Program-made: the position numbers and the translations under genes
The notes under the pieces: model-generated
Databases searched by the model: none
What the model saw: the letters and a program-made list of their open reading frames with translations, nothing else
What the model was told of the DNA's origin: nothing
Assembly: GCF_041260155.1 (NCBI RefSeq)
Contig: NC_091940.1
Coordinates: 28,328,151-28,392,150, forward strand
Source: Ptychodera flava
Lineage: Eukaryota; Hemichordata; Enteropneusta; Ptychoderidae
Length of the DNA stretch: 64,000 nucleotides
Reading direction: 5' to 3'
Part shown: one piece after another, positions 4,155-64,000 of the stretch
Numbering within the stretch: position 1 is the stretch's first letter
Layout: each line of letters opens with the position of its first letter

Positions 4155-4266
4155 ATGAGCGGAGCATGGCGTTTGACAGTTCTGGCAGCCGTGGTTTGGT
4201 TATCGCAGCCGTTGATTGCAGAGTATGACTCGTCAGAAGTAGACGGGAAACGACATAGCAGCAGAG
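4155..4266 (+). CDS. Gene 1 exon 1: signal peptide
   Basis: It starts [18 protein letters not shown], then PLIAEYD: a short n-region with Arg, a hydrophobic core and a small-residue cleavage region near LIA. It ends ..SSR plus one base (phase 1) at the donor gtaatg. The start was chosen because the signal-peptide core follows this Met directly and the upstream in-frame Met lies before the acceptor. Confidence 0.85.
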
Positions 4267-7200
4267 GTAATGTATGGCCTGTCAAATCCACGTCAACTGT
4301 CGACATGTTTGCTCATACAGTCGTTGTTAGGATTTCATGATCTGTTTACTCGATGATGTATGAGACAGCTTGCCCATCCTTCAATCGTCGTCGTTTACAC
4401 AAAATATCACGCTCAGTATAACTGAAGGCACGACTTATTTGGCAATATTTTCCAACTAAGTTTTGGAAGATGCCTTCCGGCAGTGACCAACATCAGAGCC
4501 TGGGGCTCGTATTGTCGACCGCGGGCCATTCGGGTACTTGCTGGTTCTTACGTCATTTTTGCGTCACAGCAAAGTGAAAAAAAAAATCTAAGTTCGGATT
4601 TTTCAACCAACAATATTCATTGTTTCAACATACATAAATGACATAACTTTTACTGCTACTTTTTCACATAATTTCTGCATCATTCGCTCTTCTGTATCGT
4701 CTGATCTCGCATTTACCTCGCTCACGTGCGTTTCATCTACTAACGTCACTTGGCGGTCAATAACTTGCAGGTATTGTTATCTTTGCAATTGTATTTTGGA
4801 CTTGCTTACTTGTTATTCAGAGACACAAAACATACCTGGACTGTAGAGGGGCCGTGGTATAACTAATTTCAAAATTGCCTTTGTTTTCCCATAGAGCTAA
4901 GGGCCCTGGGTGACTGTGGCGGGTTTACACCGACACGTCCGGGGAACTGGCGTCTCCCAACTATCCCAGTTACTATGGCAACAACCAGCATTGCATGTAT
5001 AGTATAAGTGTACCCTTGGATGTGTTCATAGTGGTAGGCCTTTTTATGAATATTGTTCACACACAGTTCAAACGGCAGCATTATGAGGGCAACGTTATAA
5101 GGGGATGTTTAAATACCTGACGAAATTGCATCTGTAGTGTGGTCCATTAGAATTTATACACAACAGCTACGTTCAAAAAGGTATTTTGATATGTAGCATC
5201 CCTCCAATGGCCACTACGAATTGAGTATAGGTTTGTAAATTAATAGTCTTCAAAAATCATTCTTGTTTCTATACACAACTCGTTTCTAACTGCTATTGAT
5301 CCGGTACGTGACGGTTTTTTAACTGGCAGTAACTGCAATCAAACCATATAAACTAATTTGGCTTCAAAACGACCATAAGATATAGCATTGATCTTATCAG
5401 AATGTAAATTGCCGATTGAGACTTTGACTGATGTGTAAAAGCAAAACAAAAACAAGAAACAAACAAAATGACAAAGCGATTCCCAAACATTGTTACCCTC
5501 TAAACCCTGCTTGTGTATTGTCAAATAATTCCAATATGACCCACAGTACACTATTTTATTTATTCTATTTGCAATTTTCCTGAACCAAATGAAAGAAATA
5601 ACAAACAAACAGACAATCTATTGTTTGTCTTAAAACATTCGCCCGGGAATTAACTTTTCGCATTTTTATTTTACCATTGCACGTGGAGCTTCAATTTCAT
5701 ACGTTCGACCTCGAGGCTAACAACATGGATTACGTCGATGTTTATGACGGAGACGTGTACGACTCGCAGTACAGAATAGGAAGGTACTCCGGGGCAGAAA
5801 TACCGGGCATTATACAGTCAAGCGCCTCCAGCCTCCTCCTGGTATTCGTTTCCGACTTCAGCACAACGGCGCGAGGGTTCTACGCCAAGTACAGCAGCAT
5901 GAAAGGTCACACCTCGTACGGCATGTGTTTTGGCGATCACTTCACAGACATGGGGTCTTTCACCTCCCCGTTGTACCCTTCGAATTATCCTATGCATATG
6001 AACTGCTTTTATCTCATCTCCCTGGCAACGGGAAGCACAATACGAGTAAGATTTTTGTATTTCAGTGCCATAAATCACGGCAAACGTAGAGTATACGTTC
6101 GGAATTCAGAAATAGTCAATGATACGTACAAACCTTTTGTCTAAAAAACTTAACGCGAAAATGAGGTGAAAATAAACGGTGAACTTAATATTAAGATGAG
6201 AGGACAACATGCAATAATAAACAGGACTGAGTGACTACATTGGCCTTTTCAAAGTCGCCAAAGAGTTTTTATGTCATGTTCTTACAAGTCAATTTATTCT
6301 GTTCATGAGAGAGAGGAGAGAGAGAGAGAGAGAGAGGAGAGAGAGAGAGAGAGAGAGAGAGAGAGAGAGAGAGAGAGATGGACATACAATCTGATCGTAT
6401 TTTGATTAACGACTCAGTAAATTTAAAATTCTCTATCTGTTTCAAGCTCGAGTTTCTGGAGTTTGCAACCGAAAACAGTTTTGACTACGTCGAGGTGTAT
6501 AACGGAAGCGATACGCAAGCCACAAGTCTTGGCAGGTACAGTGGAACAAATCTACCATCCCCGATCACATCCACGGGTTCCAGTCTCTACGTTAAGTTTC
6601 GTTCGGACGGGAGCACACAGCTTCGAGGTTTCTACGCGATATACAGCGTTGCGTCCTCCAAGACGTATTCTGGTAAGTTAAAAGGACAGTAATAGATGAA
6701 CGTGCATTTCGTCTATTGCGTCTTTGTACAAGCTCCTCTATCCATATGTAGTGCTGACCAGCCAGAGACGATTTTGAATTACTAAATATTGTTTTTCTTT
6801 AGTCTGTGGCGATGACTTAGTCTCAGCACAAGGTGGCGCTATTCAATCACACGAATCATATCCCAGCTACTACGGCGTCAATCTGCAATGTTCGCTGATC
6901 ATCCCTATCCAACACTCATTCAACCAAATCTACCTGAGGTTCACCGACATAGATCTATTCTACGCAAACTCTGAAGGTACGTTTGTTTAACAAATAATTC
7001 CGAATTACCCTACTTAGTTTATATAATGACCGGCACCCTGTAAAGTAAATTGCTCATCGACTTCATAAATCCTCAATTGTGATTGTGTAGACGATTAAGT
7101 GTAGACATGTGGCCTGCATAGGCTAACGACGACACTGCTTGGTCGCGGCAGTCTTTTACAATGTTTTGCGAAATCAAGTTCGCTCAAAGCAAATGCAAAT

Positions 7201-62885: not shown

Positions 62886-63125
62886 GACGCGTCTAAACCA
62901 CCTTTTCCTTCGATCAAGCATTTCCGATACATTGTTTGTACCAAAAAACAGTCCAAAAAGTCCAGATTTTTCAGCGAGAAATCCCATTGCAGACGAAGGT
63001 CCTCAAAGTGTTTTGAGGTTTAATGAACACTAGAAATAACGCGACTGCCTACGAATAAATATATCCACATATGAACTTTGACTGACATTGTCTCCATGAC
63101 ACCATATGTCTCAAAGACACAAGCC
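62886..63125. other. Intron segment inverted relative to copy A
   Basis: Reverse complement of 35569-35782. In copy B it replaces both that segment and about 90 bp to its left and 680 bp to its right that are present only in copy A. Confidence 0.85.
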
Positions 63126-64000
63126 GGTACGCAATTACTTACTATAAACCATGTTCATCAAGAGCACACGTGTGGCACTGTAGATCAGCAAACGTGTGTT
63201 GTAAGGCATCAGGGTGAAATTTGAAAGGTAGGAGACAAATTCAGAATACAACAGAAAGCCTTAGCCTCTTTACAAGTAATCTTAATTATATCAAATTCTG
63301 TCTTTAAATCTTTCAATAGGTTTGTGTATTCAGATACGATAACTTACTGCTCCTCGGGGACAGATATTTGAGCTCTCAAAGTTTTTCGATTCTCTTCTAT
63401 TTTTCCGCCTGTTACGACTAATTTTAAATCTTTCGGCGTAAGAAAAATGATCATCATCTGAATTTAGTTGCGCTTCAATACAGCGAAAATGGCGTATAAA
63501 GCCATTAATGATAGTTAATGAAAATAATTTTCTCTTAAAGTAAACCGTATCTCTCGTCCTTTCATCATAGATGTTACACAATTTTAAATCTTCTTAAACT
63601 TTGAATAGGCAGATTGAAGCGTGGGTGGACGATTCCATTAAGAAGAGGTTTTACAAGAGCACAATTTTAATTTTTTAGATTAAGAGACGCGTACTGCTTG
63701 AATGGTAAATTGAACATTTGAAGTTGAAGGACGCCAGCGACGAAACTTCAAAATCAGAAGATCGCTCAAATCTGATTCGCTGATTGTTAATCATTATCTG
63801 AATATCACGAAACCTTGAAACCGTCTTTCAATGTAAATATCTCCTTTAAGTACTAACAAATCGATGTATGGCGAATGTCATATTACCATCATTATGTCCA
63901 TCATTATTTGTGTCGTTTGATTTTAATATGTAAATGCATGGCTGTGATACTGAGGTCAGCGTTTAAGACTTCAGACCCGCGTCAGTATAACAACGTCTTA

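Follow-up and report, generated by a model that had tools for sequence, protein, structure and literature searches.

A tandem cluster of predicted multi-CUB surface-receptor genes in Ptychodera flava

Introduction

Cubilin consists of 27 CUB domains and has no transmembrane (TM) span, and neuropilin is a single-pass receptor with two CUBs at its N-terminus (a1a2 CUB, followed by b1b2 (FV/FVIII), MAM and TM). Here, we describe a tandem cluster of predicted multi-CUB surface-receptor genes in a 64-kb window of the Ptychodera flava genome (the window is the whole stretch of 64,000 nucleotides analysed); as a cluster, it is real. Its genes, arrayed head to tail in an animal-like genome, probably form a tandem family that encodes single-pass surface receptors of type I, binding ligand in a Ca2+-dependent manner. 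Type I proteins that combine a CUB array with a single membrane anchor have been described elsewhere: LEV-10 has five CUBs and an LDLa, SOL-1 four CUBs, and SOL-2 and Neto two CUBs and an LDLa each (PMC9083331). The original prediction knew of no described family with exactly the combinations found here. Similar type I CUB proteins, with or without LDLa, are described, although none has the exact counts. Among the literature matches listed, no title or opening abstract described such a cluster; with subscription journals thinly covered, this is weak evidence of absence.

Results and discussion

Gene set and domain identity

The window (GC 36-41%, N = 0) has the look of intron-rich, animal-like DNA. 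On the + strand, we modelled three multi-exon genes (g1, g2 and g3) and one lone first exon (g4) (Table 1). The products of g1, g2 and g3, which lie head to tail, are each predicted to comprise a signal peptide, several CUBs and a single TM span. Their ectodomains differ: three CUBs and an LDLa in g1, two CUBs in g2, and a CUB, a CUB-like module and a CUB in g3. Of the four same-strand genes originally proposed to share a plan of signal, CUB, TM and tail exons, three have all of these parts, whereas g4 is a signal exon alone. The proposed domain sets stand as claimed, with the middle module of g3 being CUB-like only by exon position, phase and cysteines. Only g2 has an intact open reading frame, which runs for 409 codons over seven exons.

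Profile searches, suggested with the original prediction as a check, found CUB in all three genes and LDLa in g1. Pfam matched CUB at E 3.2e-58 in g1 (three stretches, in the piece past a frame change discussed below), at 1.6e-49 in g2 (two stretches) and at 3.1e-49 in g3 (two stretches); the LDLa of g1 matched PF00057 at E 2.1e-10. Six CUBs are clear Pfam matches and the third CUB of g1 a weaker one: searched as single modules against CUB PF00431 (cut-off 21.4 bits), CUB1 and CUB3 of g3 scored 80.1 and 91 bits, and CUB3 of g1 scored 31.6 bits. The middle module of g3 had no Pfam match at E<=10, and aligned to a profile of the window's CUBs with an hhalign probability of 19% (E 0.0012). Searched alone against solved structures, it gave one match (E 1.5), which was unrelated.

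We also built local hidden Markov models (HMMs) of half-CUBs from the window's own six N-half and six C-half exons. These recover their own N exons at 61-80 bits and their own C exons at 106-125 bits, and elsewhere in the window the N model peaks at 12.9 bits (the N-half of g1 CUB3), followed by 8.2, and the C model at 7.8 bits; in a random control of tenfold sequence, the best scores were 10.8 and 10.1 bits. The two halves of the g3 middle module scored 8.2 and 4.4 bits, which is noise level, and this search of the window found no further standard CUB exons in introns. A string resembling the C-half of CUB3 (51628-51704, tblastn) was rejected, as it lies inside a dispersed repeat that recurs near 36.1 and 55.5 kb at 67-70% identity. 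This repeat family (36044-36411, 51610-51947 and 55337-55635, ~67-70% identical) is the source of the spurious match.

Six-frame Pfam scans (stops read as X; E<=0.01), which left out the + strand stretches 15001-16499 and 46502-49499, found CUB and LDLa and no other gene or transposon protein; a DUF3915 match fell below its cut-off. Rfam, at gathering scores, had no match in the window.

Comparison with described CUB proteins

None of g1, g2 and g3 has the domain set of NETO/SOL-2 (two CUBs, LDLa and TM), LEV-10 (five CUBs, LDLa and TM), SOL-1 (four CUBs and TM) or neuropilin. Since the counts match none of these, we do not assign the genes to NETO, LEV-10, SOL-1 or neuropilin. The CUB array, one LDLa and single TM of LEV-10, SOL-2 and Neto (PMC9083331) resemble g1, with which NETO2 is colinear; however, g1 has three CUBs, one of them divergent, g2 and g3 have no LDLa, and the window genes are in tandem. 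SOL-1 resembles g2 and g3 in its CUB-only ectodomain and one TM, but has four CUBs rather than two or three, and is set apart here by description rather than by sequence. Among solved chains, CUB5-8 of cubilin (3kq4_B) matches g1 and g2 best, with the Ca2+ triad present in its CUB5-7, whereas the standard CUBs of the window are without a fourth cysteine and have a shorter loop. Neuropilin a1/a2 also matches the window CUBs strongly, but in the predicted proteins and the six-frame-scanned parts of the window only CUB and LDLa rise above the Pfam cut-off, with no FV/FVIII or MAM.

Exon phases and cassettes

At the internal junctions of g1, g2 and g3, all acceptors are AG (21/21) and all donors GT (21/21). 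With g4 included, 19 of 22 donors rank by score in the top tenth of the window's 3728 GTs, using a simple textbook matrix and sites that we chose ourselves. Each standard CUB is split over two halves, the N-half entering in phase 1 and leaving in phase 0, and the C-half entering in phase 0 and leaving in phase 1. The TM exon is phase 1-2 in g1 and g2 (166 nt each) and is 197 nt long in g3, and the tail begins in phase 2. The phase-2 tail exon of the original prediction is in frame for g2 and, past its lesion, g1, but not for g3. The C-half of CUB1 and the following N-half form one exon in g1 and g3 but two in g2, and CUB3 of g1 has its internal intron at a different place, in phase 1 as judged from exon lengths.

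By the exon-shuffling rule, symmetric 1-1 modules can be inserted or removed without loss of frame. Phase-symmetric cassettes of this kind could therefore come and go while the frame stays open and so produce differing ectodomains, and cassette gain or loss is the simplest account of the differences between g1, g2 and g3.

Relationships of the CUBs and their putative Ca2+ site

We placed the CUB modules of the window in a tree with seven reference CUBs from solved structures. The two CUBs of g2 and CUB3 of g3 (g2c1, g2c2 and g3c3) form a group with an ultrafast bootstrap (UFBoot) value of 91, which CUB2 of g1 (g1c2) joins at 85. These four are 45-58% identical to one another, compared with 27-39% to the references; among g2c1, g2c2 and g3c3 alone the mutual identity is 49-58%, and g2c1 and g2c2 reach 27-38% to the references. 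Based on this grouping and identity, we show that the four modules are related to one another. The first CUBs of g1 and g3 are 36-43% identical to other window CUBs and 42% to their best references, and hence no closer to the former (CUB1 of g3 is 41% identical to CUB1 of g1 and 42% to NRP2 a2). CUB3 of g1 is not clearly closer to window CUBs than to references either. The other deep nodes of the tree have UFBoot values of 44 or less.

A Glu/Asp/Asp triad, occupying alignment columns that we take to be those of the Ca2+ ligands, is present in 6/6 standard window CUBs and 7/7 references. The loop from the Ca-ligand Glu to Asp spans 3-4 residues in the six standard window CUBs versus 6-13 in the seven references. 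None of the six has a Cys in the fourth cysteine column, and they presumably do without the second disulfide; CUB3 of g1 is the opposite, with both cysteines present. CUBs bearing this triad bind Ca2+. Other proteins with tandem CUBs contact their ligands through the Ca2+ loops (PMC8051872), and Glu183 and Asp232 of TSG-6 chelate Ca2+, the mutation of either removing most complex formation (PMC4661386). Because the triad is kept in all six standard CUBs, the best inference is that they capture ligand in a Ca2+-dependent way.

Transmembrane spans and tails

GxxxG occurs in each of the three TM spans, and all three together carried it in 196 of 20000 shuffles (spans chosen by hand). The original description of the tails as unrelated holds at the sequence level: the scores of the three tail pairs were reached by 116, 363 and 114 of 1000 shuffles, with the g3 string read across its frame discrepancy, and homology between tails is therefore not significant.

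YxN occurs three times in the g1 tail, a number reached by 12 of 2000 shuffles; we take these motifs to be of the GRB2-SH2 type. This tail also has one NPQF. The g2 tail has one PPxY (PPMY), one Yxx-hydrophobic motif (YPPM) and two YxN (336/2000 shuffles), and the g3 string has no YxN, PPxY or Yxx-hydrophobic motif. NPxY and [DE]xxxL[LI] are absent from the three tail strings tested. Adaptor coupling through the tail is suggestive for g1 only. An amphioxus Grb2-associated receptor is said to have no known tail link, which offers no support for the YxN idea (PMC10199209).

A segmental duplication carrying the signal exons of g3 and g4

Two stretches of the window (29.3-37.3 kb and 56.1-64.0 kb) are copies of each other, 88.7% identical over 6751 aligned columns (gap columns excluded). 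They lie ~26.8 kb apart, the first beginning just past g2, and carry the signal exons of g3 and g4; the part at 35.5-36.5 kb aligns poorly and is partly inverted. Since these 89%-identical copies include both signal exons, the sequence supports duplication of the family. Between g3 and g4, indels of 3 and 6 nt occur inside the signal exon, and those just upstream are of 5 and 4 nt, as would be expected if the exon is coding in either copy. No CUB, TM or tail exons of g4 were found in the window.

The 2 kb upstream of the g3 and g4 start codons (33100-35100, and the copy near 60500-62500) differ at 96 of 1975 sites (4.9%), compared with 83 of 791 (10.5%) in the flank before and 66 of 392 (16.8%) in the flank after (Fisher p 2e-7 and 2e-14, with the limits of the conserved part picked after seeing the difference profile). 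This low divergence may reflect either promoter constraint or a gene-conversion tract. The cluster was originally described as still expanding; a duplication is seen, but two interrupted frames, from decay or sequence error, have to be weighed beside it.

Interrupted frames and alternative explanations

Several observations weigh against a family of Ca2+-binding tandem receptors. The six standard window CUBs come together with a UFBoot value of only 38, CUB3 of g1 keeps just one of the three triad residues, and the fourth cysteine is likewise missing from cubilin CUB6. The matched CUB spans of ADGRG6 and enteropeptidase equal g1 CUB2 in length (by coordinates only), and the short Glu-to-Asp loop may thus not be unique to the window. 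GxxxG is common in TM helices, and the single PPxY of g2 is reached by 349 of 2000 shuffles. Between g3 and g4, the signal exon shows 13 non-synonymous and 3 synonymous changes (dN/dS 1.4, Fisher p 0.41, no difference from 1), leaving diversifying selection on this exon unsupported. Finally, g1 stops at codon 75 of 556, and g3 at codon 465 of 514, ahead of its tail and with the tail exon in another frame.

In g1, the N-half exon of CUB1 is 139 nt long, compared with 140 in g2 and 143 in g3. The frame changes after GDCGG, and CUB sequence resumes in another frame; the exon is one base short, and hence the spliced message meets its stop. Beyond the frame change, g1 is open through the end of the tail. 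In g3, the TGA in the TM exon lies 30 nt ahead of the donor that scores highest (2.8, exon end 49923). A phase-2 rescue of the tail was rejected: among nine GTs in 49811-49960, a single one, with its exon end at 49883, precedes the stop in the right phase, and its score of -5.1 equals the median for all GTs. An alternative phase-0 donor at 49845 (score -1.8) leads to another short open tail. Errors of sequencing or assembly could account for the interruptions, as could null alleles or, for g3, a truly short tail.

With both frames broken, the cluster could be decaying, g1 and g3 being pseudogenes or null alleles and only g2, perhaps with g4, functional. We consider this unlikely, though it is the strongest of the alternatives. 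Each gene has a single lesion (over 1670 nt of exons in g1 and 1543 nt in g3), its splice dinucleotides are all intact and the rest of its frame is open, and one-base indels are also a common assembly error. In g3, moreover, the stop lies 30 nt before the junction, close enough under the 50-nt decay rule for a short-tailed protein to be made, and the weaker donor at 49845 would give a different short open tail. It is less probable still that g1, g2 and g3 are auxiliary subunits of the NETO/SOL/LEV-10 type, clustering or tuning ionotropic neurotransmitter receptors, with g1 being Neto-like. The LDLa of g1 adjoins the membrane, after the CUBs, and solved NETO2 (chain 53-369) aligns to residues 123-425 of the downstream piece of g1 at E 3.1e-21. 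Yet chains of cubilin, PCPE-1 and neuropilin outscore NETO2 against g1, its CUB3 searched alone gives 8 matches at E<=10, none of them to a NETO chain, and g2 and g3 are without an LDLa. Tandem expansion is, to our knowledge, atypical of NETO, SOL and LEV-10 genes, which also counts against this explanation, even though the type I plan with a CUB array, with or without LDLa, is shared with LEV-10, SOL-1, SOL-2 and Neto (PMC9083331).

Equally doubtful is a role as endocytic cargo receptors resembling cubilin or LRP, in which CUBs and LDLa would capture cargo in a Ca2+-dependent manner and the tail would drive uptake. No solved chain matches g1 or g2 better than cubilin, g1 carries an LDLa, and the tails of g1 and g2 contain one NPQF and one YPPM, respectively; against this, the tail strings hold neither NPxY nor [DE]xxxL[LI], and the match to cubilin may be generic to CUBs.

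Possible function and significance

Returning to the tandem receptor family, the receptors would share a plan of signal peptide, CUB array, TM span and tail, with the array varying by cassette gain or loss. The conserved triad suggests that the standard CUBs would bind ligand at their Ca2+ site, and GxxxG in all three TM spans suggests pairing in the membrane. Intracellular coupling would differ between members, through YxN in g1, PPxY in g2 and, provided that the sequence is correct, a short basic tail in g3. The likeliest use would be to bind a protein or particle outside the cell, whether for recognition, adhesion or uptake; from CUB chemistry, a role in recognition or adhesion is a reasonable inference.

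A more ambitious possibility, to which we give little credence, is a rapidly diversifying locus of recognition receptors, where phase-symmetric CUB and LDLa cassettes are swapped between tandem neighbours and TM and tail exons diverge toward different adaptors (YxN, PPxY or tail-less). If true, the locus would be an exon-shuffled receptor repertoire, possibly with many more copies past the window. Should the cluster also extend and vary among individuals, it would be a compact natural case of receptors diversifying by phase-1 exon cassettes, with Ca2+-site CUBs that would provide a direct handle on the recognised target. As seen, its genes belong to a well-known type of receptor, and it should be treated with caution as two of its three visible models are interrupted.

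Coordinates and repeats

Table 1. Positions in the window of the modelled exons and of the duplicated segments.
Feature	Position	Strand	Remarks
g1 signal-peptide exon	4155..4266	+	ends in phase 1
g1 CUB1 N-half exon, 139 nt	4895..5033	+	frame change after DCGG; one base under g2 exon
g1 exon, CUB1 C-half fused to CUB2 N-half	5689..6045	+	
g1 CUB2 C-half exon	6447..6672	+	
g1 CUB3 N-half exon, divergent CUB	6803..6976	+	
g1 CUB3 C-half exon	7834..8034	+	
g1 LDLa exon, phase 1-1	8697..8822	+	Pfam PF00057 E 2.1e-10
g1 transmembrane exon, phase 1-2	9787..9952	+	
g1 cytoplasmic tail exon, three YxN motifs	10876..11044	+	
g2 signal-peptide exon	13839..13971	+	
g2 CUB1 N-half exon	14612..14751	+	
g2 CUB1 C-half exon	15194..15398	+	
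g2 CUB2 N-half exon	15823..15974	+	
g2 CUB2 C-half exon, preceded by 9 kb intron	24981..25197	+	
g2 transmembrane exon	27288..27453	+	
g2 tail exon, PPMY and Tyr/Pro-rich stretch	28810..29026	+	
g3 signal-peptide exon	35173..35278	+	
g3 CUB1 N-half exon	39600..39742	+	
g3 exon, CUB1 C-half fused to CUB-like N-half	40496..40828	+	
g3 CUB-like module C-half exon	41967..42180	+	by exon position and phase
g3 CUB3 N-half exon	45608..45831	+	
g3 CUB3 C-half exon	48690..48897	+	
g3 transmembrane exon	49727..49923	+	in-frame TGA at 49891-49893
g3 putative tail exon	50291..50408	+	out of frame with TM exon via best donor
g4 signal-peptide exon	62580..62688	+	remainder of g4 beyond window
Segmental duplication, first copy: g3 upstream region and signal exon	29316..37253	+	
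Segmental duplication, second copy: g4 upstream region and signal exon	56149..63955	+	

The window holds several further repeats. The 9 kb intron of g2 contains two tandem arrays, one with a 226-bp unit (21265-22155, 3.9 copies, 92% match) and one with a 161-bp unit (17054-17534, three copies, 77% match). In the CUB3 intron of g3, nested inverted repeats at 45971-46521, with arms of 145 nt (93% complementary) and 91 nt (89%), resemble a foldback or MITE element. A dispersed repeat occupies 1-730 and 43159-45554 (~86-90% identical, in both orientations), and a GTAT microsatellite of 39 copies (98% match) lies at 1023-1179.

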